From Hydrogenovibrio sp. SC-1 (GTDB lineage Bacteria; Pseudomonadota; Gammaproteobacteria; Thiomicrospirales; Thiomicrospiraceae): 39,521 nucleotides of DNA. Numbering within the stretch: position 1 is the stretch's first letter; the number at the start of each line of letters is the position of its first letter. Below, in pieces: positions 1,351 to 30,136 of the stretch. Under the pieces are notes generated by a model that had not been told where the DNA came from, did not search any database, and was given only the letters and a program-made list of their open reading frames with translations. The stretch lies in the NCBI RefSeq assembly GCF_002848135.1, contig NZ_PKGB01000018.1:1-39521 (forward strand), given 5' to 3'. The translations under genes and the position numbers were made by a program.

Positions 1351-2394
1351 ATGAGACATGGTGATATATCCTCCAGTAACGATACAGTGGGTGTCGCGGT
1401 TGTAAACTATAAGATGCCACGGTTACATACCAAAGCAGAAGTTTTAGACAATGCCCAGAAAATCGCAGATATGATGATTGGTATGAAGCAAGGTCTACCA
1501 GGTATGGACTTGGTGATTTTTCCAGAATATTCGACTCATGGCATTATGTACGATGCAAAAGAGATGTACGACACAGCTTCGACTGTTCCTGGTGATGAGA
1601 CTCGAATCTTTTCGGAAGCCTGTAAAAAAGCGAAAACTTGGGGGGTTTTCTCCTTAACTGGAGAGCAACATGAAGATCACCCTAATAAAGCCCCTTATAA
1701 CACCTTGATTTTAATCAATGATCAAGGCGAAATTGTACAAAAATATCGGAAAATTATGCCGTGGTGTCCGGTTGAAGGTTGGTACCCGGGTGATAAAACC
1801 TATGTCACCGAAGGACCTAAAGGCATGATGATCAGTTTGATTATCTGCGATGATGGTAACTATCCTGAAATCTGGCGTGACTGTGCCATGAAAGGGGCTG
1901 AATTGATTGTTCGATGTCAGGGGTATATGTACCCTGCGAAAGAACAGCAAATCATGGTCTCTAAAGCCATGGCCTGGATGAACAATACTTATGTTGCCGT
2001 CGCCAACGCAAGTGGTTTTGACGGTGTTTATTCTTATTTCGGCCATTCTGCAATTGTCGGCTTCGACGGGCACACGTTAGGCGAATGTGGCGAAGAAGAT
2101 TACGGAATTCAATATGCGGAACTGTCTGTTTCTCAGATTAGAGATTTTCGTAAAAACGCACAATCTCAGAACCATTTATTTAAATTATTACATCGTGGCT
2201 ATACTGGTAAGATCAATTCTGGAGAAGATGATCAGGGTGTTGCCGCGTGTCCTTATGATTTCTATTCAACTTGGATTAACGATCCTGAGAAGGCTAAGGA
2301 ACAGGTGGAAAAAATCACGCGTAAAACGGTTGGAACGGCTGAATGCCCGATTGATGGCATTCCAAACGAAGAGACTAAAAAAGAGCACCGCTAA
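1351..2394 (+). CDS. amiE: Aliphatic amidase AmiE
   Basis: AmiE hydrolyses short aliphatic amides such as acetamide and propionamide to the acid and ammonia, in the cytoplasm. The 347-residue protein has essentially the length of the Pseudomonas enzyme, and its first 27 residues look nearly identical to it. The nitrilase-fold catalytic triad is complete at the expected positions: Glu59 (FPEYS), Lys134 (KYRKIMP) and Cys166 ([10 protein letters not shown]). The N-terminus beginning [10 protein letters not shown] supports this start. The usual neighbours amiC, amiR and amiS are absent; instead a CbbO-like VWA gene follows after 24 nt in the same direction. Upstream NtrC-like and possible sigma-54 elements suggest nitrogen control. 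Formamide-specific AmiF is a close relative, but the N-terminus fits AmiE better. Confidence 0.95.
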
Positions 2395-2418
2395 GTTCAG
2401 TGGTCTGACGTTGTTTTC

Positions 2419-4164
2419 ATGAAATATAAGCTTTTTTTGAATGATGTACGGCGTCAAATAGAACTCACCCTGTTAGTGGTTTTTGAGAAGCACCTCCGAG
2501 TGCTCTCACTTTCTGAAAAAGGAATAGTGCCAACGGTTCGCTCAGGCACTATTTTTTTGCCCGAATTCATCGAATCAGATTCTGTGCGCAAAGCACAGCA
2601 ATACTTTCTCAGTGCAGCTCTTCATGGGGCAGCGCACCTTACATATTCCCAGCCATCAGATTCTTCTGGTCTTAATAATCGCCAGTTGGTGTTGAGTTCC
2701 TTAATGGAAGATGCTCGTGTCGAGTTGTTGGCTGCCCAAAAATTCCCAGGTATGTCGGCGTTTTTTAGTCGTCACTTTAATAAGCAGCCTTCTGGTTCCT
2801 TGTTGTTTGAGGAGGTGGCTTATTCAGTGGCTTATGCTTTGGCGACAAAGCAAACGGTCTTTAAAAGCCAATTTGTTTCGAAAGCGGTGAAATTGTTTAA
2901 TCAGGCAATCGTTGAGGATATTCATAACCCTCAGCTTTTCAAATCAATTGGATTGGCTTTGGCTAACGATATCGGTCAAATGCGAATTAGCATGAATGAA
3001 AAAGAGACCTTTGTTCTCGTACCATATCGAGATGATAATGCTTATCTGTGGAATGATTATGAGGAAACCGATGTGCAAAATAATGAATCATCGGATGGAC
3101 AGCAAACTGCCAGCGTGACCGGTATGGCTTATGATGAAGTTCTGGATGGAAGATCGGTGTCCGAGTTTAGTCATGACGCTACGTTAGATGAGGGATTGGT
3201 ATTTCAGCCCGTAAAACAAGATGCACAATCCAATCTGCTGTGTCAGCCACAATTGGTGAGTGAGTTTGTGTACCCTGAATGGGATTATAAAATTGCACGT
3301 TTGAAGCGCGACTGGTGCTCATTAAATGAGATCGTTTTTGTCGATAATTCTGAAAGAGGACTGGATCATCGAGTCGATAAATATCGTTCATTCATCAAGA
3401 AGCTTCAACAAATCATTCACCCTTACCAGTCAGAAATGCATCGTCGGAAAAAGCAAGAAGATGGAAATGAGTTGGATTTTGAGGCCATTATTCAATATAT
3501 GGTCGACTTTAAGATGGGTCGAGCTGGTTCAGAATCCAAAATATATATCGATCATGTTAAGGAAAGGCAGCAGGAGTTCTCTTTGTTGATTTTGCTTGAT
3601 TTGTCGGAGTCTATGAATGACCTTGATGTCGACAAGGAGAAGACCTTTCTTGATTTGACATTAGATTCAACGGTGGTGCTCTCAGAGTTATTGGATTCAT
3701 TGGGTCACAGTTATGCCTTACATGGCTTTAATTCAAATGGCCGTGGTGAAGTGTCATATTTTAATGTAAAGGACTTTGATCAGGCATCTGATAAATCATT
3801 GCGGTCATTAAACCAAGTTAAAGCTGGCTATTCAACTCGGATGGGCGCTGCACTTCGTCATGCTTTTTACAAAATTTCAAAACGCCGAGAGCGACATAAG
3901 TTGATCTTGGTAATTACAGATGGTCAACCGTCAGATATTGATGTCTATGATGCACAGTATTTGATCGAAGATTCTGCAATGGCTGCCAAAGAGATTGAAT
4001 CAACTGGTTGTAAGTTATTTTGTTTGTCTTTGGATAAAAATGCGGATGGGTATGCGAAAAAAATATTTAGGAAGGGGCATTATGAAGTGGTCGATCATCC
4101 TGGTAAATTACCGCAAGTGCTATCCAAACTTTATTTAAAAGTGTTCAAATCTCTTTTGTCTTAA
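2419..4164 (+). CDS. CbbO-like VWA-domain protein linked to amiE
   Basis: A 581-residue paralogue of the two CbbO proteins in this window (754 and 777 residues). It lacks roughly the first 170-200 residues of those but keeps their conserved blocks in order: an EDARVE motif near residue 97, VPYRDDN, a WDYKIARLKRDW block, QEDGNELDFEA, and a C-terminal VWA domain. The metal-ion-dependent adhesion site is intact: DLSES, then STRMGAA and a TDGQPSD loop. CbbO works with a CbbQ AAA+ ATPase to release inhibitors from RuBisCO, and related VWA proteins (NorD, GvpO partners, MoxR systems) act as adaptors. No AAA+ gene lies beside this one. The short gap to amiE implies one operon, so an adaptor role toward the amidase, perhaps sharing one of the CbbQ rings, is the simplest inference. 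It is unproven. Confidence 0.8.
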   Translation: MKYKLFLNDVRRQIELTLLVVFEKHLRVLSLSEKGIVPTVRSGTIFLPEFIESDSVRKAQQYFLSAALHGAAHLTYSQPSDSSGLNNRQLVLSSLMEDARVELLAAQKFPGMSAFFSRHFNKQPSGSLLFEEVAYSVAYALATKQTVFKSQFVSKAVKLFNQAIVEDIHNPQLFKSIGLALANDIGQMRISMNEKETFVLVPYRDDNAYLWNDYEETDVQNNESSDGQQTASVTGMAYDEVLDGRSVSEFSHDATLDEGLVFQPVKQDAQSNLLCQPQLVSEFVYPEWDYKIARLKRDWCSLNEIVFVDNSERGLDHRVDKYRSFIKKLQQIIHPYQSEMHRRKKQEDGNELDFEAIIQYMVDFKMGRAGSESKIYIDHVKERQQEFSLLILLDLSESMNDLDVDKEKTFLDLTLDSTVVLSELLDSLGHSYALHGFNSNGRGEVSYFNVKDFDQASDKSLRSLNQVKAGYSTRMGAALRHAFYKISKRRERHKLILVITDGQPSDIDVYDAQYLIEDSAMAAKEIESTGCKLFCLSLDKNADGYAKKIFRKGHYEVVDHPGKLPQVLSKLYLKVFKSLLS

Positions 4165-4207: not shown

Positions 4208-4231
4208 AAAAAACCCCACCAATAGGTGGGG
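4208..4231 (-). terminator. Rho-independent terminator of the urt-fmd operon
   Basis: A 7-bp stem CCCCACC/GGTGGGG (4214-4220 with 4225-4231) and a four-base loop. On the minus strand it is followed by six T (4213-4208), so it ends transcripts leaving fmdB. The plus strand has no T run after it. Confidence 0.85.
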
Positions 4232-4258
4232 CAGTTATTAATAGCTTACCTAGCTGAT

Positions 4259-4615
4259 TTAATGACTAATCATCCAAGGTCGCATTGATGGAAACATTTT
4301 CTTTCCATCTGCAGTCCACATGAGCTTTGATTTACCTTTTTTATGATATTGGCAACCACAGCCGTGTTTGAGCTTTTCTGCATTCTCTGCACGACTGTCC
4401 ACCGTCGATACCTGAGGTTCATGCTGGGCCGCTTCATTTTTTTCGATGGCATCTCGTTTTGCAGGAGCCATGTCTAAAACTTCAGGCGGAATCATAATGA
4501 TTCTAGGTGATAAGGTCTGGCAATGCGGACATTGCGCTGGCTTATTGGATTCGTCCAAGGTCGCAAGTTCATAAAAGATACCATGATCTGGACACTTATA
4601 ATCATAGACTGGCAT
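4259..4615 (-). CDS. fmdB: FmdB-family zinc-ribbon protein
   Basis: A 118-residue protein of the FmdB family, small zinc-ribbon proteins named from the Methylophilus methylotrophus formamidase locus where FmdB was proposed to be regulatory. It starts MPVYDYKCPDHG, and the ribbon ligands are probably Cys8, His11, Cys29 and Cys32; the usual second Cys appears as His. A C-terminal extension beyond the typical ribbon contains a second Cys/His cluster, HGCGCQYH (about residues 84-91), which could bind another metal. It is the last gene of the operon, 10 nt after fmdA, and a clear terminator follows. Its molecular role is not established. Confidence 0.85.
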   Translation of the reverse strand: MPVYDYKCPDHGIFYELATLDESNKPAQCPHCQTLSPRIIMIPPEVLDMAPAKRDAIEKNEAAQHEPQVSTVDSRAENAEKLKHGCGCQYHKKGKSKLMWTADGKKMFPSMRPWMISH

Positions 4616-4625
4616 TGGTAACTCC

Positions 4626-5858
4626 TTACTTCAAATCAGGTGCTAAAGGGACTTGGACACTATCGTCTACATGCTTTTTCGGCCCATCGGCACTTGGATT
4701 GACATCAAACTTGAAGATGTCGGTCGGTAGCCATAGTGTTGCACAAGAGTTTGGAATATCAACTACACCACTGATGTGACCTTGAACAGGTGCGGTTCCT
4801 AATAATGAATATGCTTGTGCACCAGAATACCCAAATTTCTTGAGATATTCGATCGCATTCAAGCAGGCCTGTCTATATGCGACATTGACATCAAGGTAAT
4901 GTTGCTTACCTTCCTCATCAACAGAGATACCTTCAAAGATTAGATAGTCGTCGTAGCGAGGCGTAATTGGACTTGGCTTAAAGACAGGGTTTTTGATGCC
5001 ATATTTTTTCATACCATCTTTTACTAGGTTGACACGAAGGTGAATCCAGCCGGCCATTTCAATTGCACCACAGAATGTAATTTCACCATCACCTTGGCTA
5101 AAGTGTAAATCTCCTACGGAAAGCCCTGCATCCTTAACGTAAACTGGGAAGTAGACTTTGGAGCCGCGAGATAAATCCTTGATGTCACAGTTACCGCCAT
5201 GTTCACGTGGTGGAACGGTACGAGCACCTTCAGCTGCCGCAGATTTTGCTTCATCTGGTTTCATGCGTCCCATGTGGGCGGTTTCTGCATAAGGTAGGGC
5301 TGCTAGCGGCGGGGTGCGCTCAGGATCTGTGTCAAAGAGTTCTTTTTCACGAGTGTTCCACTCATCCAGCATTTTTTTATCTGGTAAGCACCCAATCAGG
5401 CCTGGGTGAATTAAACCGGCGAATTCAACACCTGGAATGTGACGAGACTGTGTAAACATGCCGTTGAAATCCCAAATGGTTTTTTGGGCTTCAGGGAAAT
5501 GATCGGTTAAGAAACCACCACCATTTTGCTTTGAAAAGAAGCCGTTGAACCCCCACTGACTGTCGTCAAATGTTCCGATATCTAAAATATCCACTTCAAG
5601 TAAGTCGCCAGGTTCAGCGCCTTCGATTCCAACAGGACCTGATAAAAAGTGTACTTGGGTTAAGTCGACGTCACGAACGTCAGACGCATCGTCATTGTTT
5701 TCGATCTGTCCACCTGTCCAGTCCATGCATTCGATGATAAAGTCATCGCCAGGCTTAACCATTGAAACCATCGGAATGTCCGGGTGCCAACGGTTGTGGA
5801 TGTTGTCATGCTCATAGGCTGATTTGTTAAGGTCAATTTTAATAATTGTTTCGGCCAT
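4626..5858 (-). CDS. fmdA: Formamidase FmdA
   Basis: FmdA hydrolyses formamide to formate and ammonia. The 410 residues match the length of the FmdA/AmdA acetamidase-formamidase family, which is unrelated in fold to the nitrilase-type AmiE encoded nearby. Recognisable family stretches include HNRWHPDIP near residue 21, CMDWTGGQI near residue 44, HFLSGPVGIEGAEPGDLL and the GGNCDIKDL and HFSQGDGE blocks of the catalytic core. A good ribosome site (AGGAGA) precedes the ATG. It follows urtE by 38 nt and precedes fmdB by 10 nt, so it is co-transcribed with the importer. This arrangement resembles the amide/urea uptake and formamidase cluster described in Methylophilus. Confidence 0.93.
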   Translation of the reverse strand: MAETIIKIDLNKSAYEHDNIHNRWHPDIPMVSMVKPGDDFIIECMDWTGGQIENNDDASDVRDVDLTQVHFLSGPVGIEGAEPGDLLEVDILDIGTFDDSQWGFNGFFSKQNGGGFLTDHFPEAQKTIWDFNGMFTQSRHIPGVEFAGLIHPGLIGCLPDKKMLDEWNTREKELFDTDPERTPPLAALPYAETAHMGRMKPDEAKSAAAEGARTVPPREHGGNCDIKDLSRGSKVYFPVYVKDAGLSVGDLHFSQGDGEITFCGAIEMAGWIHLRVNLVKDGMKKYGIKNPVFKPSPITPRYDDYLIFEGISVDEEGKQHYLDVNVAYRQACLNAIEYLKKFGYSGAQAYSLLGTAPVQGHISGVVDIPNSCATLWLPTDIFKFDVNPSADGPKKHVDDSVQVPLAPDLK

Positions 5859-5896: not shown

Positions 5897-6586
5897 TTAA
5901 ACAGATAAAAACGAAGAAACTTTTTCTTCATCAACTTCATTACGCGGCTGATCATGAATGATCTTGCCTTTTTCGATAACAATAATCCGATCGGCTACGT
6001 CCAGAGCAAAGCTTAAAACCTGCTCGGAAACAATGATTGATAAGCCTCTTGAGTCACGGATCTCTTTCAAGGTGTGAGCCATTTCTTTGATAATTGAAGG
6101 TTGAATCCCTTCAGTGGGCTCGTCCAATAATAGAACGTCAGGGTTGCTAGCTAGGGCTCTGGCAATCGCAAGTTGTTGTTGTTGTCCACCGGATAAGTTG
6201 CCTCCACGACGTTTTCTCATTTCACGTAATACGGGGAAGAGGTTATATAGATCTTCTGGCACTTCGGTTTCTTTGGTGCTAGTTAGGCCGGTTTCGATGT
6301 TTTCTTGAACGGTCATGGTCGAAAAGATCATTCGCCCTTGTGGAACATACCCCAAACCAGCTTTTACGCGTTCGTGGCTTTGCATTCCGAAGAGTTCTTT
6401 CTCTTCTAATTTAACGCTTCCTGATTTAGATGGAATCATTCCAATCAAGGATTTCATGAGTGTGGTTTTACCCATCCCATTACGCCCCATGACAGCGATA
6501 ATTTCATTTTTTTTAAGGGAGAGGTTCAAGCCTTTGATAACTTCACTTTCTCCATAAGCCACATGCAAATCTTGTATTTCTAGCAT
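5897..6586 (-). CDS. urtE: Urea/amide ABC transporter ATP-binding protein UrtE
   Basis: One of the two ATPase subunits of a branched-chain-amino-acid-type importer. The 229 residues contain Walker A GRNGMGKTT (about 34-42), the signature LSGGQQQQLA, Walker B VLLLDEPTEG and a switch-region His replaced by a Gln/Ser context (IIVSEQ), as in other LivF/UrtE proteins. It lies 11 nt after urtD. Order, subunit types and association with formamidase give the UrtE assignment; FmdF-like naming from methylotrophs would be an alternative. Confidence 0.92.
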   Translation of the reverse strand: MLEIQDLHVAYGESEVIKGLNLSLKKNEIIAVMGRNGMGKTTLMKSLIGMIPSKSGSVKLEEKELFGMQSHERVKAGLGYVPQGRMIFSTMTVQENIETGLTSTKETEVPEDLYNLFPVLREMRKRRGGNLSGGQQQQLAIARALASNPDVLLLDEPTEGIQPSIIKEMAHTLKEIRDSRGLSIIVSEQVLSFALDVADRIIVIEKGKIIHDQPRNEVDEEKVSSFLSV

Positions 6587-6597
6587 TTTTATCTCCC

Positions 6598-7368
6598 TTA
6601 GTGTCCCAGGTATACTTCAATGACTTTCGGGTCGTTTTGGACTTTGTCCATTGAACCTTCGGAAAGAACCTGCCCTTGATGAAGCACGGTGACTCTGTCT
6701 GCAATTTCCTCAACAAAATGCATATCATGTTCAATAACCAGTACCGATCGATCCTTGGTGATCCGCTGCAATAATTCAGCTGTTTGCTTCCGTTCTGAAA
6801 CAGACATCCCAGCGACAGGTTCATCTAGCATGAGTAATTCGGGGTCTTGGATTAACAGCATTCCAATCTCAAGCCATTGTTTTTGACCGTGACTTAAAAG
6901 GTTTGCTGGACTATTAAGTTTCTCCTGCAAGAAGATCATTTGTGCAATTTCATTGACCTTATCGATGACATCCTGGTCACGCCTGAAGGTTAGAGCGCCC
7001 CAAACTTTTTTGCCTTTTGGGTAGGAAAGCTCAAGGTTTTCGAAGACGGTCAAATCTTCATAGATTGAAGGGTTTTGAAATTTTCGGCCAACACCCGCAT
7101 GAACGATTTCATGCTCTTTAAGTTTGGTCAGTTCTTTTCCTTTAAACTTGATAGAACCTGCCGTTGCACTAGTACGTCCGCAAATCAAATCCAGTACAGT
7201 TGTTTTTCCCGCCCCGTTTGGGCCGATGATGACGCGGATTTCTTGTTCTTCAATGTATAAAGACACATCATTTACCGCTTTGAAACCATCGAACGAAACG
7301 GTAAGTCCTTCAATAGTTAATACAAAGTCTTTTTGTTGGTACATGGTTTTCTCCAATACCTTGGTCAT
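6598..7368 (-). CDS. urtD: Urea/amide ABC transporter ATP-binding protein UrtD
   Basis: The LivG-like ATPase partner of UrtE, 256 residues. Walker A is GPNGAGKTT (about 49-57), the signature motif is the UrtD-typical LSHGQKQWLE, and Walker B is LLMLDEPVAG, followed by VIEHDMHFVE with the switch His. The signature variant SHGQ rather than SGGQ is characteristic of UrtD. It begins 10 nt after the urtC stop. A later in-frame ATG at residue 9 is a possible alternative start. Confidence 0.93.
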   Translation of the reverse strand: MTKVLEKTMYQQKDFVLTIEGLTVSFDGFKAVNDVSLYIEEQEIRVIIGPNGAGKTTVLDLICGRTSATAGSIKFKGKELTKLKEHEIVHAGVGRKFQNPSIYEDLTVFENLELSYPKGKKVWGALTFRRDQDVIDKVNEIAQMIFLQEKLNSPANLLSHGQKQWLEIGMLLIQDPELLMLDEPVAGMSVSERKQTAELLQRITKDRSVLVIEHDMHFVEEIADRVTVLHQGQVLSEGSMDKVQNDPKVIEVYLGH

Positions 7369-7378
7369 TAATTGATAA

Positions 7379-8494
7379 TTATTTTTTGGCTTTTTTATCT
7401 TGTATGGCTTTTAACTTTTTATCTACCCAAGGCTGTACATAGCTTTCGTAGATTCCTGCCAACCCTTTAGGAAAGGCTAGTACAACGGCGATGAACATAG
7501 CTCCCATTGCGAACAGCCATAGTTCCGGATAAGATTCAGACAGAATGGTTTTTGCCCAGTTAACAATTAAAGCGCCGTAAATCGCGCCGAATATCGAAAG
7601 GTTTCCGCCGACGGCCGCAAAGATAACCATTTCAATTGACGGTACGATGCCAATCAGGGAAGGAGACATGAATCCGACTTGTAGCGTAAACATGGCACCT
7701 CCAATTGAAGAGAAAATCCCAGCAATACAGAAGATGAATATTTTGAAATTGGACACGTCGTAGCCAGAGAAGCGAACTCGATCTTCACTGTCTCTCATAG
7801 CCACCAGCAGCCGTCCCAGCTTGCTTTTACGGATGTATTGCGCCACGACTAAGGTTGCCAATAGTAAAATAACATTTATGAAATACAGTATATATTTGGC
7901 AGAATCGGTACGGATATCCCAACCAAGTAGCGTTCTAAGGTCAGTGATACCATTGACACCTCCTGTAAATCCTTGCTGTCCAATGATCAAGATTGTCAGG
8001 ATAGCGGCAATTGCTTGAGTGATAATGGCGAAATAGACCCCGCCCACGCGTCGTTTAAACATTGCAGCACCGATGATGTAGGCAAACACAGTTGGTAAAG
8101 CAATGATGGCAAATAGGGTGAAACCAAAACTGTGGAAGGGTTCCCAAAACCAAGGGAGTTCCGTGAGTTGGTTCCAATCCATAAAGTCTGGTATACCCGG
8201 TGTTGACTGAATGGCTGTATTTTCAGGGCTTGAAGCTTCAAGCTTTAAAAACATCGCCATGGCGTAGCCACCTAGGCCAAAGAAAATTCCTTGACCTAAA
8301 CTCAAGATACCGCCTAGTCCCCAAGAGAGAACCAGACCCAAAGCGACGAATGCAAATGTTAGATATTTTCCGATTAGATTTAATCTAAAAATATCAAACA
8401 GTATGGGTAAAGCGACCAGAAGAATCGCAGCCAAGATCAAAAATGATACGACATCATTTTTTGGGGCTAAAGAACGTAGTTTAGTTTGTAGCAT
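7379..8494 (-). CDS. urtC: Urea/amide ABC transporter permease UrtC
   Basis: The LivM-like inner-membrane permease, 371 residues with about ten hydrophobic segments. The ABC-contact loop is seen in LLVAMRDSEDRVRFSGYD, matching the LivM/UrtC EAA-type region, and the GLGGILSLGQGIFFGLGGYA stretch near residue 60 is typical of the family. It pairs with UrtB to form the channel. The C-terminus is rich in lysine (KKLKAIQDKKAKK), which places it in the cytoplasm. It starts 13 nt after urtB. Confidence 0.93.
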   Translation of the reverse strand: MLQTKLRSLAPKNDVVSFLILAAILLVALPILFDIFRLNLIGKYLTFAFVALGLVLSWGLGGILSLGQGIFFGLGGYAMAMFLKLEASSPENTAIQSTPGIPDFMDWNQLTELPWFWEPFHSFGFTLFAIIALPTVFAYIIGAAMFKRRVGGVYFAIITQAIAAILTILIIGQQGFTGGVNGITDLRTLLGWDIRTDSAKYILYFINVILLLATLVVAQYIRKSKLGRLLVAMRDSEDRVRFSGYDVSNFKIFIFCIAGIFSSIGGAMFTLQVGFMSPSLIGIVPSIEMVIFAAVGGNLSIFGAIYGALIVNWAKTILSESYPELWLFAMGAMFIAVVLAFPKGLAGIYESYVQPWVDKKLKAIQDKKAKK

Positions 8495-8507
8495 CTTTTT
8501 AATTCTC

Positions 8508-9434
8508 CTAGCGACGAACTTTGAGTGAGAAGAGTCCTTGTGGACGCAACATTAGGATCACTATGACCGTTAATAACGTTAAGACTTTTGCCATAGACCC
8601 ACTCAAGAAAAATTCCATAATGGACTGGGCCTGTGAAATACTGAATGCAGATGCGATGGTTCCAAGTAGGCTGGCTGCGCCACCGAATACCACGACCAGG
8701 AAGGTATCAACAATATATAGTTGTCCAGAAGTGGGGCCGGTTGAACCAATCATGGTGAATGTCGCTCCGGCAATACCTGCGATACCACAACCTAGCGCAA
8801 AGGTGAAGCGATCAACACGGGCTGTATCGATACCAACTGCTCCAGCCATTGCTCGGTTTTGAACGACCGCGCGGGACTGCTTTCCTTTTCTAGATTTTTG
8901 CAGGAATAAGAAAACCCCTACCGTAATGAAGAGTGTGATGACCATGACGATCATGCCATTAACAGGGACTTCAATCATTTCGCTGACTTGGAAAGAACCC
9001 ATCATCCAATCAGGTAATGTTACCCCGACCTCACGAGGACCAAAAACGGTTCTATAGAGTTGTTGCAGAATTAAGCTTAACCCCCAAGTTGCCAGAAGAG
9101 TGTCAAGTGGGCGTTTGTAAAGATGTCTAATTAATGACCATTCGACTAATGCGCCAAGCAGGAAAGTGCCTATAAAGGCAAAAATGATTGCTATGAAAAA
9201 GTAGGCACCAAATAACTCTGGAATATATGTGGAGAATAGATTCGAAGTTAGGTAGGTGATATAGGCTCCCAGAATCATAAACTCTCCGTGTGCCATGTTG
9301 ATCACGCCCATTTGGCCAAAAATTATTGCCAAACCAAGTGCCATGAGTAGTAATACAGAGAACAGAATAAGGCCTGAAAAGCCTTGCATCGCGAAAATTG
9401 AGCCTAGTTCAGCCCATGTATAGTCAGCAAACAT
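8508..9434 (-). CDS. urtB: Urea/amide ABC transporter permease UrtB
   Basis: The LivH-like permease, 308 residues with about eight membrane segments. Family hallmarks are FGQMGVINMAHGEFMILGAY (about residues 39-58) and the contact loop AVVQNRAMAGAVGIDTARVD. UrtB of cyanobacteria and proteobacteria often carries an extended N-terminus, which is absent here. It is separated from urtA by 147 bp that hold two strong hairpins, implying lower or separate expression from the binding protein. Confidence 0.92.
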   Translation of the reverse strand: MFADYTWAELGSIFAMQGFSGLILFSVLLLMALGLAIIFGQMGVINMAHGEFMILGAYITYLTSNLFSTYIPELFGAYFFIAIIFAFIGTFLLGALVEWSLIRHLYKRPLDTLLATWGLSLILQQLYRTVFGPREVGVTLPDWMMGSFQVSEMIEVPVNGMIVMVITLFITVGVFLFLQKSRKGKQSRAVVQNRAMAGAVGIDTARVDRFTFALGCGIAGIAGATFTMIGSTGPTSGQLYIVDTFLVVVFGGAASLLGTIASAFSISQAQSIMEFFLSGSMAKVLTLLTVIVILMLRPQGLFSLKVRR

Positions 9435-9500
9435 TTATTTTCCCTCCTGGCAGGTAAAATAATCTAAGTAAAAAGTTGTGTGTTTTTGGGGGTGTTATGA

Positions 9501-9547
9501 CACCTAATTAAAGACTCTATGCTGGTTTTAGAGCCTTTAATTAGGTG
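9501..9547 (-). other. Long stem-loop between urtA and urtB
   Basis: Arms CACCTAATTAAAG (9501-9513) and CTTTAATTAGGTG (9535-9547) are perfectly complementary, and after one mismatch the stem continues with CTCTA/TAGAG. No T run follows on the minus strand, so it looks like a transcript-stabilising or processing element downstream of urtA, not a classical terminator. Confidence 0.75.
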
Positions 9548-9570
9548 CAGCCCATATTTATATGGGCTGC
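9547..9570 (-). other. Second perfect hairpin downstream of urtA
   Basis: GCAGCCCATAT (9547-9557) and ATATGGGCTGC (9560-9570) form an 11-bp perfect stem with a two-base spacer, 11 bp after the urtA stop. It shares one base with the neighbouring stem-loop, so the two are stacked back to back. Confidence 0.75.
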
Positions 9571-9581
9571 ATCCAATGAGC

Positions 9582-10829
9582 TTATTGGTAACCCTTAGGG
9601 AATGGGTTTGGTTCAATTAACTCTTTAGACTCATAAACTACATCAAACTGTCCATCTTTCTTAGCATGACCAATTCGCGATTTAGACCATAAGTGGTGGT
9701 TAGGGTGAACTTTTACATAGCCTTCAGGAGCGGTTGTAAGTTCGATACCAGGAAGGGTTTTACGAATCTTATCGATATCGAACGAACCTGCCTTTTCAAC
9801 AGCGGCTTTCCATAACCAAGGACCTAGGTAGGCTGCTTGAGTTACGTCACCAATTACGATATCGTCTCCCCAGCGCTTCTTAAATGCTTTAACAAAAGCT
9901 TGGTTGTTGTCGTTTGGTAAGCTCTGGAAGTATTTCATTGAAGCATATAAGCCCTCAACGTTTTCACCACCAATACCTAAGATTTCATCCTCAGTTACAG
10001 ATAGCGTCAGAACTAATGGTTTTTCTTTAGTTAGATCAATACCTGCTGCATTTAGCTGCTTGTAGAATGCAACGTTAGATCCACCAACAACTGTTGTAAA
10101 GATGACGTCAGGTCTCTTCAGTTTGATTTTATTGATGACTGAGTTGAACTGAGTATGTCCTAGTGGGTAGTACTCTTCACCAACCACTTTCAAGCCAAGT
10201 TTTTCGATGTGCTTGCGAGCGATTTTGTTAGACGTACGCGGCCAGATGTAGTCTGAACCCAGCAAGAAGAATTTTTTAGCACCTTTTGTTTTCTTAGCCC
10301 AGTCAATTCCTTTAAGAATCTGTTGGGTTGCTTCTTGACCTGTATAGATAACGTTAGGAGATTGCTCTAACCCTTCATAGAAGGTTGGGTAAAAAAGCAT
10401 GCCATTGTATTGCTCCATAACCGGTAGAACAGCTTTTCGTGAAGCAGAGGTCCAGCAGCCCATGATTGCAGCAACCTTATCTTTAACTAGAAGTTTCTTA
10501 GCCTTTTCAGCAAAGGTTGGCCAATCACTTGCACCATCTTCTTGGATGTATTTGATCTGGCGACCTAGGACACCGCCTGAAGCATTGATTTGCTCGATAG
10601 CCAGTTTTTCTGCTTGAATGGAACCCGTTTCACTGATCGCCATCGTTCCAGTCGCTGAGTGAAGGATTCCGACCGTTACAGTATCATCTGTAACGGCTAG
10701 GCCCGTTGAGTTTACGTCAGATGCGTAAGCGCTTGTTGCAAGTAACATAGCTGCAGGAATTGCTGCCAGTCCCTTTAATAAAGTTCGACGGGTTGTCCCT
10801 GGTCGACTTGGAGAGATTGTTTTTTTCAT
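9582..10829 (-). CDS. urtA: Urea/short-amide ABC transporter substrate-binding protein UrtA
   Basis: The periplasmic binding protein of the importer, 415 residues. The N-terminus has a twin-arginine signal (TRRTLLKG followed by a hydrophobic run and a cleavage site near AYA-S, about residue 37), so it is probably exported folded through Tat, as is common for UrtA. The mature protein begins with VTVGILHSATGTMAISE and contains IMGCWTSASRKAVLPV and YWPRTS-like segments typical of the Urt/FmdD family. Which ligand is bound, urea or short amides, cannot be read from sequence; the operon includes formamidase, so amides are plausible. It is the first gene of the operon and has its own upstream regulatory region. 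Confidence 0.95.
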   Translation of the reverse strand: MKKTISPSRPGTTRRTLLKGLAAIPAAMLLATSAYASDVNSTGLAVTDDTVTVGILHSATGTMAISETGSIQAEKLAIEQINASGGVLGRQIKYIQEDGASDWPTFAEKAKKLLVKDKVAAIMGCWTSASRKAVLPVMEQYNGMLFYPTFYEGLEQSPNVIYTGQEATQQILKGIDWAKKTKGAKKFFLLGSDYIWPRTSNKIARKHIEKLGLKVVGEEYYPLGHTQFNSVINKIKLKRPDVIFTTVVGGSNVAFYKQLNAAGIDLTKEKPLVLTLSVTEDEILGIGGENVEGLYASMKYFQSLPNDNNQAFVKAFKKRWGDDIVIGDVTQAAYLGPWLWKAAVEKAGSFDIDKIRKTLPGIELTTAPEGYVKVHPNHHLWSKSRIGHAKKDGQFDVVYESKELIEPNPFPKGYQ

Positions 10830-11021: not shown

Positions 11022-11209
11022 TTTTGGAGGTGCTAGGGCGCGTTAGATAAAAGTGAACTATGGAAATGATTTTTATTGGGGGGATAAGTTAAAAAGCAGG
11101 TAAGCCGCGTTATACCTATTGAAATTCGTTAACAAAGGATTATTGAGATGATTGATAGCGCTAATAACATTGCATTATTAGACGTTTAATTAACTTAAGT
11201 CTTTGTGTC

Positions 11210-12655
11210 TCAGGCTTTTGTGCGGAAGGTTTGGTTTTTACCAGCGCGTTTGGCTTGATACATGGCGTTATCTAAACGGCGGAAAATGGTATCGTAGTTA
11301 TCGGGAGTTCGGTATTCGGTAACGCCAATACTAATGGTCACGGGGTGGTGGGTTAGGGTTTGTAGCTGTGGGTCTTGTTCGATTTGTTGCCGCAAGCTTT
11401 CCGCGAGAATGTAAGCTTGATCTTCAGTTGTTCCAGGTAGGGCAATAACGAATTCTTCGCCTCCCCAGCGGGCAATGAGGTCTTCTTTACGGAATCGTTG
11501 TTTGAGTAGTTCTGCGACCCGCATCAAGGCTTGGTCGCCCGATTGGTGCCCGAATTGATCGTTAATGGTTTTGAAATTGTCGATATCGAAAAAGATGAGA
11601 CCTAAAGGTTGATTATGACGTTTGGTAAGCGCTAGCAAACTTTCAAAATCATCGTTAAAGGCGCGCCGATTTTTAAGCTGGGTTAGCGTGTCGTTGCGTG
11701 CTAGAAACTGCAGTTTTTTGTTAAATCGACGAACCATCGTTAAAATAATGAGTGTAATGATGAGGGTGATGACTAGCGAAATACTGAGGTTGACCAGGAA
11801 GGTTTGGCGAACGTCTTTGGTAAAGTCGTCTAGTTTGGCTTGCACGATTAAATAGGCATTAAGTTCGGGGATGAATTGGGATTTTAATAAATACTGTTCA
11901 TCTTGATCACTGTATTCTAATGTTTGGCTTTGGTCGGCTAAAATTCGATCTTTTAGGGCATAAAGCTGAGGGTTGTCGGAGAGGTTTTGCATAGCGATGG
12001 TGTCGCGTTCGCGCAGAATAATCTCTCCATTTGGATCAATAAAGAAGACAGTGAATTGATATTTTTCGCGGAACAATTTTAAGATGCTGTCAATATAGGA
12101 CATTTCCATGCCGATGCCGGTCGCGCCAAGTAGCTTTTGGTCTTGATCAAAAATTTTGTGGTTGATAAACATAATCATTGAATTGTGAAGCTGGTCGTTA
12201 TAGTCGAGATTAATTTCGTGATGTTTAGATTGTTCTTTAAAGCGAAAATACCACGCGTTGTCTGGGTCTGCTGTACTGAGTTTTTCTACAAAACCCTGTT
12301 GAGAGTAATAGTTTTGTGTTTTCTCAGAAACTAGAAAAGTGAGAAACATGCCATACTTTTGTTGAATTGAGGCGAGGTAGGTTCGGATTTTGGTTTGGTC
12401 ATCTTCTTGGTGATGTAGCCAGTCTTTTACAAAGGTGTCGTGCGCCATCATTGACGAAATCAGGTTAGGCTCAATAATATTGCGTTGGATTTCGGTGTAG
12501 ATGTTTTCGACGGATAGCGGTAGCGAGCGGTTTTTTAATTCATATTGCTTGGCATTCAGTGAGACAACGAAATTGATTAATGAAATTGAAATCGATAGCA
12601 CTAGCAGTAAGCTGGTAATGATAATGACGATTTTTGAATTGGCATTGAATTTCAT
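11210..12655 (-). CDS. Membrane diguanylate cyclase with periplasmic sensor domain
   Basis: A 481-residue protein predicted to make cyclic di-GMP. A first membrane segment lies at about 8-30, a periplasmic region of about 250 residues resembles a Cache sensor, and a second membrane segment lies near 285-308 (LSISLVITLIITLIILTMV). The C-terminal GGDEF domain has the active motif RWGGEEF and the inhibitory I-site RKED five residues before it, so product feedback is likely. DNDTLTQLKNRR-type entry is present as ARNDTLTQLKNRRAF. The ligand of the sensor is unknown. It lies downstream of the DUF218 gene on the same strand with a 143-bp gap. Confidence 0.9.
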   Translation of the reverse strand: MKFNANSKIVIIITSLLLVLSISISLINFVVSLNAKQYELKNRSLPLSVENIYTEIQRNIIEPNLISSMMAHDTFVKDWLHHQEDDQTKIRTYLASIQQKYGMFLTFLVSEKTQNYYSQQGFVEKLSTADPDNAWYFRFKEQSKHHEINLDYNDQLHNSMIMFINHKIFDQDQKLLGATGIGMEMSYIDSILKLFREKYQFTVFFIDPNGEIILRERDTIAMQNLSDNPQLYALKDRILADQSQTLEYSDQDEQYLLKSQFIPELNAYLIVQAKLDDFTKDVRQTFLVNLSISLVITLIITLIILTMVRRFNKKLQFLARNDTLTQLKNRRAFNDDFESLLALTKRHNQPLGLIFFDIDNFKTINDQFGHQSGDQALMRVAELLKQRFRKEDLIARWGGEEFVIALPGTTEDQAYILAESLRQQIEQDPQLQTLTHHPVTISIGVTEYRTPDNYDTIFRRLDNAMYQAKRAGKNQTFRTKA

Positions 12656-18935: not shown

Positions 18936-21200
18936 TTATTGCGTGAGTTTCATAAACACTTGTGGCAACTGTTCTGGCAATTTATCGACATGATCGATGA
19001 CCGTATAGTGGTTGTCAAAAATCGTTTCTACATACTCATCGGCATCAGGGTCAAGTGTAATGCAATAGGAATAAATCCCTTGGCCTTTCAGCTCTTCCAC
19101 CGCTTTACGCGTGTCTTCAATTAACATTTGTGGATCTTTGACGTCAATGTCTGCCGGTTCGCCATCGGTTAATACCAACATCAGTTTCTTTTCAGCTTGT
19201 TGAGCATCCAAATAGTGTGCTGCATGTCGCATTGCCGCGCCCATACGGGTTGAATAGGATGCTTCCATCGCCGAAATACGGGCTTTGACTTCATCGCAAT
19301 AATTTTCTGAATAGCCTTTGATGTGCTGGTAGCGTACTTCATGGCGTGTATCTGAACTGAATCCTGCAATCGAAAACTTGTCGCCCAGTTGGTCAACGGT
19401 CCAAGCGGTAATGGCTAGCGCTTCTTGGCTGAGCTCTAATAAGGTTTGTCCCGTATCTGGGTTACGCTCATTTAAAGATTGCGAGGTATCAACCAGTAAC
19501 ATCACCGCAATATTGCGACTGTCGGTTGTGTGACTGGTATTGATTCGTGGGTCGGGCACTTGACCGGATTTGAAATCAATAATGGAACGAATCGCAATAT
19601 CCAAATCGAGTTCGTCGCCTTCTTCTTGGAAACGAATCCGTTTTTTGTTTTGCGGCTTGAGCGCTTCAATCATTTTTTTCAAACGTTTTGCTAGGTTATC
19701 ATGCTTCGCCATTAAGTAATCGATATAACCCGCATCGGCAGAAGGGTGTAGCCGTTCATACACGGTTGCCCAATCTGGACGATAGCTTTCAGAAATGTAA
19801 TCCCATTCATCATAGTGACGAGGGGGCAAGCTATTGGGGTCTTCAATAATCTTTTCTTCCGGCTCATATTCATTGGGCATGATTTCATCTGGCTCGTCAT
19901 ATTCTTCGTAGTGGAACCAGATGAAACGATTGTCGTCCCGATAAGACACTTCGGTATCGTCAAAAAACATCTTTGGCATACTGTCAGAAGATTGCTTGCG
20001 AGACTTAACATAAAATAACGACCCTAATTCCGCCATATCCCTGGTGGTTGAGTCTTCGCCTTTTTCTGACATCACCGCATGAAATTTTTGTCGAAATTCT
20101 TCAATCAATGGGTTTTCAGAGTCAAAGTTTTCATCCAATAGCGCTCTAGATAGGCGTGTCGCACGGTAGCGCAAACAAGAAAATTCTTTATCATTACAGG
20201 CGCCTTTTTCGGGGTAGGGGTGCAATGATAAAAACAGGGCTTTCAGGCCTGGGTATTTTTGGATGGCCAAATACTCTACCCGACTATCTTCAAATACCGA
20301 AATAAATAATTGGATGTGTGGCGCAAAGTTATCAGCCATCAACTTGGTTGACCATCTTTGGTGCGCCATCATATGAGCTAAGGTTGCACGATAACGGTTC
20401 AGCCCGCTGATGCCATTCTCATTTTCATACACGTCCGGTACCGCAATAATGGTTTCGTCCAAATAGGGCACGGGTTTGCGCAATTGATCAAAGGCTGTCG
20501 CAAACGTCTGAAAGGGTAGGTCGCAATCCCACATACAGTCCTTTAGCATTTCTAGATGACGAGCGACATCTTTAAAGGTCGTGCCTTGGCGTTCACGGGT
20601 GATAATGCTTTTGGCATCATGTGATTCGAGTTTGAAGTAAGCAATTTGGTCGTTCGGTGAGTTAGCGTAATTGCTCGCGCCATAGTGAATAAAGTTTTGA
20701 ATGCCTTTCAAACAGAGTTTGGAAATCAGTTGCGGCATGGATTCCAATAGAGCGACCATACCTGGGCTCTCGTGTACTGAGTGATGACCATGAATGACGG
20801 TTTGCGTTTTATCGACATATTCATCAATAATCTGTAAATAGAGCTCTAGGTCTTCAATTTTGTCTATCCGACGACAGACATGACCCAGTGTCGATAAGAA
20901 AGGAATGAGCGCTTTTTTATTGGGGCTGCGAGCCAATTGATAGCCGTAATCGGCAATCATTTTATTGGTGCCTTGCCCGAAATGCGCAGCAATATCTGGC
21001 ATGACTTCCATGTACACTAAAACTGGCTCAACACCCTGTCCAATTTTACACAGAAAGTTCGCTCCTTCCAAATAGGCTTCAACCCCTTGAGGGGACAATT
21101 TGGAGACGGCATCATTTAATAAGTCGGGGAAGAGTTCAACGGCTTTTGGAAATTTACAGGTAAACTTTTCCTGATATTCAGCAAACATTGCTTCATTCAT
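18936..21200 (-). CDS. cbbO: RuBisCO activation protein CbbO (cbbM-linked)
   Basis: CbbO is the VWA-domain adaptor that links the CbbQ AAA+ ring to RuBisCO so that inhibitory sugar phosphates can be released. The 754-residue protein has a long helical N-terminal region, an EDSRVEYLAIQKYPG segment near residue 300, the WDYISESYRPDW and EEGDELDLDIA blocks, and a C-terminal VWA domain with the metal site DTSQS, STRMGAA and TDGEPAD. Its place after cbbM and cbbQ1 implies service to the form II enzyme. The start ATG lies 194 bp after cbbQ1, an unusually long gap holding a nested hairpin. Confidence 0.93.
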   Translation of the reverse strand: MNEAMFAEYQEKFTCKFPKAVELFPDLLNDAVSKLSPQGVEAYLEGANFLCKIGQGVEPVLVYMEVMPDIAAHFGQGTNKMIADYGYQLARSPNKKALIPFLSTLGHVCRRIDKIEDLELYLQIIDEYVDKTQTVIHGHHSVHESPGMVALLESMPQLISKLCLKGIQNFIHYGASNYANSPNDQIAYFKLESHDAKSIITRERQGTTFKDVARHLEMLKDCMWDCDLPFQTFATAFDQLRKPVPYLDETIIAVPDVYENENGISGLNRYRATLAHMMAHQRWSTKLMADNFAPHIQLFISVFEDSRVEYLAIQKYPGLKALFLSLHPYPEKGACNDKEFSCLRYRATRLSRALLDENFDSENPLIEEFRQKFHAVMSEKGEDSTTRDMAELGSLFYVKSRKQSSDSMPKMFFDDTEVSYRDDNRFIWFHYEEYDEPDEIMPNEYEPEEKIIEDPNSLPPRHYDEWDYISESYRPDWATVYERLHPSADAGYIDYLMAKHDNLAKRLKKMIEALKPQNKKRIRFQEEGDELDLDIAIRSIIDFKSGQVPDPRINTSHTTDSRNIAVMLLVDTSQSLNERNPDTGQTLLELSQEALAITAWTVDQLGDKFSIAGFSSDTRHEVRYQHIKGYSENYCDEVKARISAMEASYSTRMGAAMRHAAHYLDAQQAEKKLMLVLTDGEPADIDVKDPQMLIEDTRKAVEELKGQGIYSYCITLDPDADEYVETIFDNHYTVIDHVDKLPEQLPQVFMKLTQ

Positions 21201-21293
21201 ACTTAAACGCTCTCATTCGTTTAATTGAAAAAATACGCTTTAGAAAGAATGTTGAGTACTATCTAAAGAGAGTAATCATCATACTGAGGCTTT

Positions 21294-21375
21294 TGTTTTT
21301 GGTGCTGTACAAAGCAAGTTGCGTGAGTGTACATAAGTACACGACCAAAACAAATGCAGTACAGTGCCAAAAACA
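21294..21375 (-). repeat. Nested inverted repeat between cbbQ1 and cbbO1
   Basis: Arms at 21294-21310 and 21359-21375 match over 17 positions with a two-base mismatch in the middle (9 bp and 6 bp stems). Inside lies a perfect GTGTAC-ATAA-GTACAC hairpin (21327-21342). Such a structure could lower cbbO1 expression relative to cbbQ1 or protect the cbbQ1 message. No T run follows. Confidence 0.65.
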
Positions 21376-21394
21376 GAAGAAATCAGTTGATGAT

Positions 21395-22195
21395 TTAGCC
21401 GATAATCATTTCGATTGCATTATCCAGCGTTTCACGAATGTCAGCATCATCGGTGATAGGGCGCACCAATGCCATTTTACAGGCTTCAACCGGTGCAATC
21501 CCTTGGTTGATCAAGGTTGCTGCATAGACCATTAAGCGGGTTGAGATGCCTTCATCTAAACCGTGACCCTTAAGGTTTCGCGCCGCTTCACCGATCTTGA
21601 CCAGTTTGGTTGCCGTTTCAGCATCAACCTTACCTTCTTGCTGCAAGATATGCGATTCTTTTTCGGCAGTCGCATAATCAAAGTCTAAGGCACAGAAACG
21701 CTGTTTAGTGGATTGCTTCAAATCCTTCATCAGTGACTGGTAGCCAGGGTTATAAGAAATAACCAATTGGAAGTCAGGGTGGGCTTTGATTAATTCGCCT
21801 TTTTTATCTAATGACAGTTCACGACGGTGATCGGTCAAGGCATGGATAACCACCATGGTGTCCTGGCGAGCTTCAACAATTTCATCTAAGTAACAAATGG
21901 CACCATAACGAGCGGCAAGCGTTAGCGGACCATCCACCCAGCGAGTTCCGTTTGCATCTAATAGGTAACGACCAACCAAATCGGAAGCGGTAATGTCTTC
22001 ATTACAGGAAACGGTGATAATGGGTTTGCCGAGTTTCCAAGCCATATGCTCAACAAAACGGGATTTACCGCAACCAGTCGGTCCTTTTACCATGACTGGA
22101 AGACGTGCGCTATAGGCAGCTTCATAGAGTTCTACTTCGTTTGATTGTGCATCATAAAATGGTTCGTTTTCAATTTTGTATTGTGAAATATCCAT
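21395..22195 (-). CDS. cbbQ: RuBisCO activase AAA+ ATPase CbbQ (cbbM-linked)
   Basis: A MoxR-family AAA+ ATPase of 266 residues that forms a hexamer and, with CbbO, remodels inhibited RuBisCO. Walker A is GPTGCGKS (38-45), Walker B is ICYLDEIVEA (about 100-109), sensor 1 is in [10 protein letters not shown], and the arginine-containing segment KQSTKQRF follows. The CbbQ/NorQ-type motif [15 protein letters not shown] is clear. It follows cbbM after the terminator region, so readthrough or partial termination would set its level. It is closely similar to the second CbbQ at 29243. Confidence 0.95.
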   Translation of the reverse strand: MDISQYKIENEPFYDAQSNEVELYEAAYSARLPVMVKGPTGCGKSRFVEHMAWKLGKPIITVSCNEDITASDLVGRYLLDANGTRWVDGPLTLAARYGAICYLDEIVEARQDTMVVIHALTDHRRELSLDKKGELIKAHPDFQLVISYNPGYQSLMKDLKQSTKQRFCALDFDYATAEKESHILQQEGKVDAETATKLVKIGEAARNLKGHGLDEGISTRLMVYAATLINQGIAPVEACKMALVRPITDDADIRETLDNAIEMIIG

Positions 22196-22406: not shown

Positions 22407-23807
22407 TTATTTATGAACGCCCAATTTTTCTCTCCAATCAGGGAAGATTTTATCCGCATCATGAGGGAAAGATTCGAATGCACGAGCAAATTCAGGATGC
22501 TCTTTAGCGTATTCGATTGGGTCTGCACCCGTTTTCCAACACTCATAGGCTTGACCTAGAGAGATACCACCCGCTGCTGGGCTGTCGATGTGACCGAATG
22601 AACCACCACCACAAGTGTTGATAACGTTACCGTGACCTAGGTTTTCAAAGAAACCAGGAAGACGTAGTGCGTTCATACCACCAGAGATGATTGGTGTAGT
22701 CGGCTTCATACCATACCACTTCTGATAGAAGTAAGGTCCTTGACACTCATCACGCTCAAGCATATAGGCAAGAACAGTTTCACCAGCGTGACCTTCCATT
22801 TTACCGTAACCCATGGTTCCAGTGTGGATACCAGAAGCACCCATTAGACGAGCTAACTTCATGTAACATAGTGGATCCATACCCATAGGTGACTTATAAG
22901 AAGTCACAGCACCATGACCGGCACGGTGGAAATGTAGGTAAGTATCAGGGAAAGCACGGCGTGCAGTTGTAACACCAGCAGGACCGGTTACGAAACCATC
23001 AACTAGGAAAGCAACGTGTTTTTCGTTACCATACTTAGCGAATTCACCTAGGATGTACTCACCACGCTTAATCATTTCACCGTGGAAGTCAGCAGTCACG
23101 TTAGCAGAGAAAAGCTTAGCTTGACCTGTTGCTTGCTGTGCACGATCCATTGCTTCTGCAACCTTAGGAATAACAACTTCCATTGGGCAGAAAGGTTGGT
23201 TGGCTTGTGGCTCATCGTTCTTGATGAAATCACCACCTAGCCAGAAATCATAACAAGCTTTAGCGAAAGGCTCTGGACGAAGACCTAGCTTAGGCTTGAT
23301 GATGGTACCAGCGATGTAACCACCGTCAACTTCTGGGCGACCAAGAACACGCCATAGATCAGAAATATCAGTAGCTGGACCGTCAAACTTTTTAACCATT
23401 GTTTCTGGAACCATGAAGTCCAACATACGTAGACCTTCGTGGTCACCCATACCTTGGTTGTTCCCAAGGATCAAAGACCACATGTGAGAAACGTTATAGA
23501 AACCATCGATAAGGTTAGGATCGAATAGGTCAACAGGATAAGCGATCTTCATTAGACCACCTTTGTCACCAAACGCTGCTTCGTCAACTTCATATACCAA
23601 AGCGTCAACACCACGAGTGAAGTCATCAGTTGTTGAAACTTCAACGTTTGTTCCAGTTGAAGATTCAGCCGCAACGTGTGCAGCAACTTCTAGGAAACCA
23701 TAACCTGGTGCAGGCTTTAAACGGTATGCAACCAAAAGGTGATTGCCACCAGCAATTAAATCATCTTCATTCAAACTTAAGTCAGCGTAACGATTAGACT
23801 GATCCAT
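22407..23807 (-). CDS. cbbM: Form II RuBisCO, CbbM
   Basis: Fixes CO2 onto ribulose 1,5-bisphosphate as a homo-oligomer of large subunits. The 466 residues match form II enzymes. The catalytic lysine region TIIKPKLGL (Lys171) and the carbamylated lysine motif [10 protein letters not shown] (Lys196, with Asp198 and Glu199 as magnesium ligands) are intact, as are HFHRAGHGA and the loop 6 region with [13 protein letters not shown] before the ATG is a good ribosome site. cbbR lies upstream in the same direction and cbbQ1-cbbO1 downstream. Form II has low CO2 affinity and works at high CO2. Confidence 0.98.
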
Positions 23808-28418: not shown

Positions 28419-28441
28419 TTGAATTTAAAGGAGCATAAATT

Positions 28442-30061: not shown

Positions 30062-30083
30062 GTCAAATAAGCTCAAATGAGCG

Positions 30084-30103
30084 AAATTTTGACCAGGCCT
30101 GGT
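30084..30103. repeat. CAGGCCTG palindrome in the cbbQ2-cbbO2 gap
   Basis: A 12-bp palindrome ACCAGGCCTGGT preceded by AATTTTG. The same 19 bases occur at 12801-12819. It is one of eight CAGGCCTG copies in the window. Confidence 0.6.
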
Positions 30104-30136
30104 GAAAAATAACACAGATTAAAAGTGAGTTAAGCA

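Follow-up and report, generated by a model that had tools for sequence, protein, structure and literature searches.

A VWA protein encoded behind an aliphatic amidase gene of Hydrogenovibrio as a candidate adaptor between a CbbQ-type MoxR ring and AmiE

What does a relative of the RuBisCO activase adaptor CbbO do directly behind an amidase gene? The question is raised by contig NZ_PKGB01000018.1 of Hydrogenovibrio sp. SC-1 (39,521 bases, one whole contig of the 2.45 Mb genome, henceforth the window), in which the gene for a short CbbO/NorD-like VWA protein follows amiE, the gene of an aliphatic amidase, after 24 nucleotides (amiE stop codon at 2392-2394, ATG of the VWA gene at 2419), exactly as stated in the original prediction made from the bare sequence. 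Our answer, to which we assign a probability of roughly 0.6, is that the VWA protein is a candidate substrate adaptor that would couple a CbbQ-type MoxR hexamer to the amidase AmiE. One kind of machine would then probably serve two very different enzymes, RuBisCO and an amidase, because a relative of the ATP-driven RuBisCO machine adjoins the amidase gene in many bacteria and the amidase bears a tail like the one recognized in RuBisCO. This reading draws on gene order, conservation, the metal site of the VWA domain, the match to the NorD fold, the correlation of the amidase tail with the presence of the machine, and trees, all observed in this analysis; labels beginning with L or G are our own handles for loci and genomes. 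The features at issue are as follows.

1351-2394, forward strand: amiE, aliphatic amidase (nitrilase superfamily), the proposed client; NF009802 equivalog
2386-2391, forward strand: His-Arg codons, the last two residues of AmiE, abutting the stop codon; proposed client tag
2419-4164, forward strand: short CbbO/NorD-like VWA adaptor, 581 amino acids; Pfam VWA
2419-3054, forward strand: N-terminal domain of the adaptor, residues 1-212, aligning with CbbO from about residue 195 on
3055-3249, forward strand: adaptor linker, residues 213-277 (213-274 at a predicted local distance difference test score, pLDDT, below 50)
3376-3576, forward strand: finger region of the adaptor, residues about 320-386, with EDGNELD; aligned with the pore finger of NorD
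3598-3921, forward strand: metal ion-dependent adhesion site (MIDAS) of D394, S396, S398, T473 and D501

AmiE scores 724 bits against the aliphatic amidase equivalog NF009802 (cut-off 427), has E59, K134 and C166, which we take to be the catalytic positions, and finds its nearest named relatives in Thiomicrorhabdus and another member of the Piscirickettsiaceae. Within the family, an orthologue of the adaptor was detected in 9 of 62 genomes, with AmiE encoded directly upstream in all nine (94-98% identity for the other eight AmiE); in one of the nine (G322, locus L099), cbbQ lies directly downstream of the adaptor gene. Beyond the family, the best 80 of 416 named amiE loci were examined. A CbbQ-like ring gene (Q), a VWA gene or both occur in the flank of 64 of these 80, and RuBisCO in none: 46 loci show the order amiE-Q-VWA, some with one or two genes separating amiE and Q, 2 are amiE-VWA-Q, 12 are amiE-VWA without Q (in three of these, the contig ends within 1.2 kb), 1 is amiE-Q cut by the contig end, 3 carry Q/VWA on the opposite strand, and 16 have neither. 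Most of the sampled Burkholderiales and Rhodocyclales loci contain their own ring gene in the operon (amiE-Q-VWA); the adaptor without an adjoining ring gene is found in this organism, in most sampled relatives with the gene, in Acidithiobacillus and in several gammaproteobacterial metagenome-assembled genomes (MAGs). The pairing is not unique to this genome, so that the outcome named in the original prediction as refuting is excluded. Among 23 Q-linked genomes, RuBisCO matches were absent from 6, weak only in 6 (read here as RuBisCO-like proteins) and strong in 11; because some Q-linked genomes lack a RuBisCO match and none of the 80 flanks contains RuBisCO, the amidase module is not tied to RuBisCO. 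A class-wide sample of 274 genomes yielded AmiE in 10, namely, six with the VWA gene only, one with Q and VWA, and three with a ClpB-D2-like AAA+ gene (hereafter AmiB-type) behind amiE. A phylum-wide sample of 398 genomes yielded AmiE in 31: the window genome with its VWA gene, 7 with Q, 8 with an AmiB-type gene and 15 with neither (8 of these 15 belong to one genus).

Another line of evidence comes from the C-terminus of AmiE. Large subunits of the RuBisCOs on which CbbQO acts are reported to end in an HK/R motif, KLDXXHK or KLDXXXR, and a C-terminus one residue shorter or longer abolishes activation (PMC4660213, PMC8718961). In the window, 3 of the 29 open reading frames checked end in His followed by Lys or Arg (H[KR]), namely, both RuBisCO large subunits and AmiE. 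Across 122 AmiE, this tail was present at 55/55 loci with Q and VWA, 3/3 with Q/VWA on the opposite strand, 2/2 with the order VWA-Q and 18/21 with the VWA gene only, compared with 0/11 AmiB-linked AmiE and 8/30 with neither; the residues preceding H[KR] vary. In the three VWA-only exceptions (L056, L054 and L107), AmiE ends once in HS and twice in HQ, so that the His is kept and the basic residue is lost. In these counts, L087 and L114, which come from the same genome, are both included, such that the VWA-only class comprises 20 distinct genomes, and L124, L216 and L217 are classed as Q plus VWA on the strength of a Q after which the sequence ends. Because the H[KR] pattern was chosen with the genome-set tails already in view, the plasmid set alone, 25 records picked by hand out of 64, is a forward test; as predicted beforehand, H[KR] was found in 10/10 plasmid AmiE with Q/VWA near and 0/15 without, and the contrast recurs within the genera Burkholderia, Azospirillum and Agrobacterium. 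Over all 148 AmiE, 88 are linked and carry the tail, 3 are linked without it, 8 are unlinked with it and 49 are unlinked without it, that is, 88/91 with Q/VWA nearby versus 8/57 without. The constant pairing in the family, the 64 linked loci and the RuBisCO-like tail together support the suggestion in the original prediction that MoxR-type machinery may serve an amidase.

The adaptor, at 581 amino acids, is shorter than CbbO (about 770 residues with a long N-terminal part), and both it and its orthologues start matching form-I CbbO at about residue 195. A misplaced start codon was considered and rejected: the reading frame spans 589 codons from stop to stop, so the N-terminal part is truly missing, in line with the 170-200 residues that had been noted as absent. 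The C-terminal VWA domain is present and its metal site is intact, as had been proposed: the five MIDAS residues are invariant in 30 aligned rows, and so are G349 and D353 of the finger region. An AlphaFold2 model (mean pLDDT 77.7) comprises the N-terminal domain (residues 1-212), a low-confidence linker (213-274) and the VWA part (278-581); its top structural match is NorD of the solved NorQD complex (9qh6_G; Z 28.5, 267 residues, root-mean-square deviation 5.9, adaptor residues 281-577), with the tip of the modeled finger (344-354 and 367-383) at pLDDT below 50. Compared with L106, a close relative, the ratio of non-synonymous to synonymous substitution rates (dN/dS) is 0.15 for the VWA gene and 0.014 for amiE, indicative of purifying selection.

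By phylogeny, the window VWA protein does not belong to CbbO. A quick-search tree of 82 VWA proteins unites the 24 CbbO rows in one branch (Shimodaira-Hasegawa-like approximate likelihood ratio test, SH-aLRT, 100), and the window adaptor falls outside it. The tree includes adaptors of the amiE-VWA loci (type A, 21 rows) and of the amiE-Q-VWA loci (type B, 24 plus 3 rows, some cut to the last 600 residues); the NorD rows join the type A adaptors at 92, a node that is not starred. The description of the protein as CbbO-like thus holds for its sequence identity to CbbO (31-32%) and the shared VWA domain and MIDAS, but not for its place in the tree. The CbbQ/CbbO activase is the closest parallel in its components, a MIDAS-containing VWA adaptor, a CbbQ-type ring and a client with a C-terminal HK/R-type motif (PMC4660213, PMC8718961); the window adaptor differs from CbbO by its position off the CbbO branch, the lack of about 195 N-terminal residues, the location beside amiE and the absence of a ring gene of its own from the genome. 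CbbO is reported to be insoluble when its CbbQ is missing (PMC4660213). With NorQ/NorD (PMC13036017, PMC9976466), the window adaptor shares the VWA fold, over a stretch that takes in the putative finger and the C-terminus, at the Z-score given above; NorD, however, serves nitric oxide reductase, and no nor genes adjoin the window adaptor.

Where, then, would the ring come from? The two CbbQ proteins of the whole genome (those matching CbbQ_C) are both encoded in the window and both linked to RuBisCO, at the following loci, each about 15 kb or more from the VWA gene; the genome encodes three CbbO-like adaptors.

18936-22195, reverse strand: form-II cbbO (18936-21200) and cbbQ (21395-22195); candidate ring donor
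22407-23807, reverse strand: form-II RuBisCO, C-terminus ...GVHK
27000-28795, forward strand: form-I RuBisCO large subunit (27000-28418, C-terminus ...VKHK) and small subunit (28442-28795, named by context)
29243-32470, forward strand: form-I cbbQ (29243-30061) and cbbO (30137-32470); the other candidate ring

A hidden third CbbQ was sought with CbbQ_C across the whole genome and none was found, in agreement with the earlier statement that the locus lacks a CbbQ partner. Most likely, the adaptors of such ring-less loci, that of the window included, borrow a RuBisCO CbbQ ring encoded elsewhere. A CbbQ_C protein is encoded elsewhere in 20 of the 21 genomes with amiE-VWA and no ring seen at the locus (17/18 when the three loci near contig ends are left out), and RuBisCO is present in all 21; when 13 of these genomes were searched with form-I CbbQ, a ring with 68% or higher identity to the query turned up in 12. 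In a tree of rings, cut to the last 285 residues, the two rings encoded beside type A adaptors (L099 and L104) fall within a branch of 19 (support 100/98) that otherwise includes form-I and form-II CbbQ only, and the rings of the type B operons lie outside the CbbQ branch. The nearest rows to the L099 and L104 rings are form-I CbbQ, the end branches of the two are 0.8 and 0.38 (median 0.15), and they group together in 2% of 200 bootstrap trees. Probably, a RuBisCO ring was captured twice by an amidase operon, which had earlier used such a ring in trans; the L099 genome now has three rings for three adaptors, compared with two rings for three adaptors in the window. The idea that the ring comes from elsewhere, already voiced in the original prediction, thus gains indirect support from the rings elsewhere in the genomes and the RuBisCO-type CbbQ in two amidase operons, and ring sharing appears plausible on these sequence comparisons. 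In G339 (L106), a single CbbQ was found, beside form-II RuBisCO, along with an intact amidase adaptor without a ring gene; if rings are shared there, the form-II ring must therefore do. In the MAG G362 (L104, 12842-13657), the amidase operon supplies the sole CbbQ-like and the sole CbbO-like gene found, and RuBisCO is present: either the MAG is without cbbQO or the amidase-operon pair serves both enzymes.

Taking these comparisons together, we infer a mechanism in which the adaptor would dock into the ring with its VWA finger and its C-terminus, in the manner of the solved NorQD complexes, the MIDAS would bind an acidic residue of AmiE, the C-terminal His-Arg of AmiE would be engaged by the machine, and ATP hydrolysis would distort and thereby reactivate AmiE, freeing it from a dead-end ligand or a closed conformation, by analogy with the action of CbbQO on RuBisCO. 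NorD holds its ring with the finger and the extreme C-terminus, and the finger is required for iron insertion (PMC13036017). Both CbbQ of the window carry the GRxLL/IxxxxT insert that is contacted by the NorD finger in NorQ. A search for an acidic AmiE surface residue that marks the linked amidases, as a MIDAS ligand might, gave no clean signature; the strong differences instead set apart the AmiB-linked AmiE, near E59, near K134 and towards the C-terminus. As a guess, AmiE might be freed from a urea-derived dead end on its catalytic cysteine, which would fit the urea transporter and urease neighbors of the locus; AmiE is reportedly inhibited by urea, in a paper of about 1979, on which our literature search found nothing.

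Several observations weigh against this reading. Many AmiE stand alone, without Q/VWA or an AmiB-type gene at 16 of the 80 named loci and in 15 of the 31 AmiE of the phylum-wide sample, and solved AmiE structures exist. The published RuBisCO motif is HK or R, not exactly H[KR], and the looser requirement of a terminal Lys or Arg is also met by 11/30 AmiE with neither gene, 1/11 AmiB-linked AmiE and 6/15 unlinked plasmid AmiE. Eight AmiE have H[KR] without Q/VWA nearby: in L135 and L143, a Q/VWA pair of the amidase type is encoded in another part of the genome; L102 combines a VWA remnant at the locus with a form-I-type CbbQ and CbbO in the genome; the genomes of L110, L125 and L133 have a CbbQ adjoining CbbO; and nothing beyond a NorQ-like ring was found for L132 and nothing beyond a weak match for L158. 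When independent changes along the AmiE tree are counted, the correlation of tail and machine has too little statistical power: supported branches yield 6 pairs, which are almost never opposed (median p 0.0625). A single clade of type A and type B adaptors is not rejected by the approximately unbiased (AU) test (p-AU 0.35; L145, a long branch, left out). As to the ring, CbbQ is present in 29 of 34 genus and family genomes anyway and CbbQ_C also matches NorQ, so a CbbQ elsewhere in the genome is weak evidence alone; one MAG (L103) has the adaptor with no ring found in its genome; and, judged by the supported branches alone, the two ring captures need not be separate.

Unlikely, although the main rival, is the possibility that ring and adaptor assemble or fold AmiE instead of reactivating it. 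MoxR/VWA pairs also act in maturation, as NorQD does in iron insertion into nitric oxide reductase (PMC13036017), and the authors of a 2026 description of the ami operon on a plasmid of Pseudomonas veronii Yu15, with CbbQ/NirQ/NorQ-like and NorD-like genes, suggest a possible role in amidase "assembly/activation" (PMC13209695). That operon resembles the loci studied here in combining amiE with ring and VWA genes, and differs from that of the window in its ring gene within the operon and its amiC/amiR regulators; the original prediction knew of no described amidase activator of this type, and the amidase link had already been noted in part in that paper. The many AmiE genes without any neighboring machine speak against assembly, as do the AmiE crystal structures. 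The latter are said to come from recombinant protein made alone, and AmiE is not known to have a metal centre; both points likewise count against an assembly role. In the open-access literature searched, we found nothing on the amidase tail, a ring-less adaptor or ring capture, PMC13209695 being the only relevant link between an amidase and MoxR.

Improbable, next, is a third RuBisCO activase adaptor that came to lie behind amiE by chance. The identity to CbbO, the same ring family, the presence of RuBisCO in all 21 genomes with an adaptor but no adjoining ring, and the L104 genome, where the amidase operon holds the only CbbQ-like and CbbO-like genes found, are all compatible with this explanation; the position outside the well-supported CbbO branch, the absence of RuBisCO from the 80 flanks, the related operons in genomes without a RuBisCO match and the tracking of machine presence by the AmiE tail argue against it.

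The neighboring genes bear on another explanation, which we rate as quite improbable, namely, that the client is not AmiE but another enzyme of the amide/urea cluster, such as formamidase or the transporter.

4213-4232, reverse strand: hairpin with a T-run, resembling an intrinsic terminator, that separates the VWA gene from the convergent fmdB; a consensus match only
4259-5858, reverse strand: fmdB, zinc ribbon protein (4259-4615), and fmdA, formamidase (4626-5858)
5897-10829, reverse strand: urtE, urtD, urtC, urtB and urtA, a urea/short-amide ATP-binding cassette transporter

On the 5' side of amiE are a NicO-family gene and what is presumably the end of ureG, named from its sequence; with amiE, fmdB, fmdA and urt, these neighbors show no link of the VWA gene to nitric oxide reductase. 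In the window, four terminator-like hairpins were found and 3.0 are expected by chance, the promoter and terminator scans being near chance level. The fmdA and urt genes are frequent neighbors, and the window VWA gene sits between amiE and the convergent fmdB-fmdA pair, both in favor of this explanation. Against this, Q/VWA lie 3' of amiE on the same strand except in the three opposite-strand cases, fmdA was not seen in the flank of some amiE-Q-VWA loci, and, among the amide/urea cluster proteins of the window checked, H[KR] ends only AmiE.

That the ring-less VWA gene is a functionless relic left after loss of the ring gene is very improbable: decay does occur (a remnant in L102, a VWA gene in two pieces on an Acidithiobacillus caldus plasmid) and 3 of the 21 VWA-only AmiE have HS or HQ tails, but the window gene is full-length with an intact MIDAS and the low dN/dS given above, the gene persists in the nine genomes of the family as well as in remote lineages, and a CbbQ of the RuBisCO type is found in two amidase operons. 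The L102 remnant (11045-11578) encodes 178 amino acids of the VWA protein behind an amiE whose product has kept its HR tail, and the loss is therefore probably recent. In L180 (6956-8746), from the Acidithiobacillus caldus plasmid, the VWA gene behind amiE is annotated in two pieces, transposase genes are near, and AmiE still ends in HK.

A different AAA+ gene, of the AmiB type, is often found beside AmiE genes without Q/VWA in Pseudomonadota, Bacillota and Actinomycetota. These ClpB-D2-like genes behind amiE are, judging from their position, presumably orthologues of AmiB. Examples from the genome set are listed below.

L093, 10321-11511: AmiB-type gene
L094, 10455-11675: AmiB-type gene
L095, 10647-11771: AmiB-type gene

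Plasmid loci of this type are L248, L253, L257, L260, L262, L263, L264 and L266. AmiB of the Pseudomonas aeruginosa amiEBCRS operon appears in a table as "Probable chaperone" (PMC10213629); like the window adaptor, it is encoded directly behind amiE, and the AmiB-type proteins found here are AAA+ ATPases like the proposed ring. They differ from the window system in belonging to another AAA+ subfamily, the ClpB-D2-like one, in having no VWA partner and in the tail of the linked AmiE, with H[KR] in 0/11 of the genome set, as noted above, and 0/8 of the plasmid set. The AmiB-type queries gave no match at the 80 named amiE loci, and at nine loci with neither Q/VWA nor AmiB, no AAA+ gene was detected among the 10 downstream proteins.

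Tentatively, a broader scheme is possible, in which a shared CbbQ pool would serve three VWA adaptors and clients per cell (form-I RuBisCO, form-II RuBisCO and the amidase), the C-terminal His-Lys/Arg would be a portable client tag of this MoxR/VWA branch, and aliphatic amidases would depend on reactivation by AAA+ proteins, of which they would have recruited two unrelated kinds (AmiB-type and CbbQ-type), comparable to the three recruited by RuBisCO. If the coupling of a CbbQ-type ring to AmiE is real, a simple amidase joins RuBisCO and nitric oxide reductase as a new client of the CbbQ/NorQ branch of MoxR machines, and the HK/R of the RuBisCO C-terminus becomes a testable general code, such that clients of orphan MoxR/VWA pairs could be predicted from tails alone. 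Nitrogen acquisition from amides and urea would be tied to the carbon-fixation machinery through a possibly shared ring, and the AAA+ gene that adjoins amiE in many further bacteria, on plasmids of Bacillota and Actinomycetota as well, would have a possible explanation.

Two minor observations concern further pairs of this kind. At L185, L186, L187 and L192, VWA proteins of 838-908 amino acids are encoded near a CbbQ-like gene and fall on the NorD side of the tree. On an Agrobacterium plasmid (L246, 302-3120), a second CbbQ-like/VWA pair lies about 3 kb 5' of amiE-Q-VWA, beside hypothetical genes.

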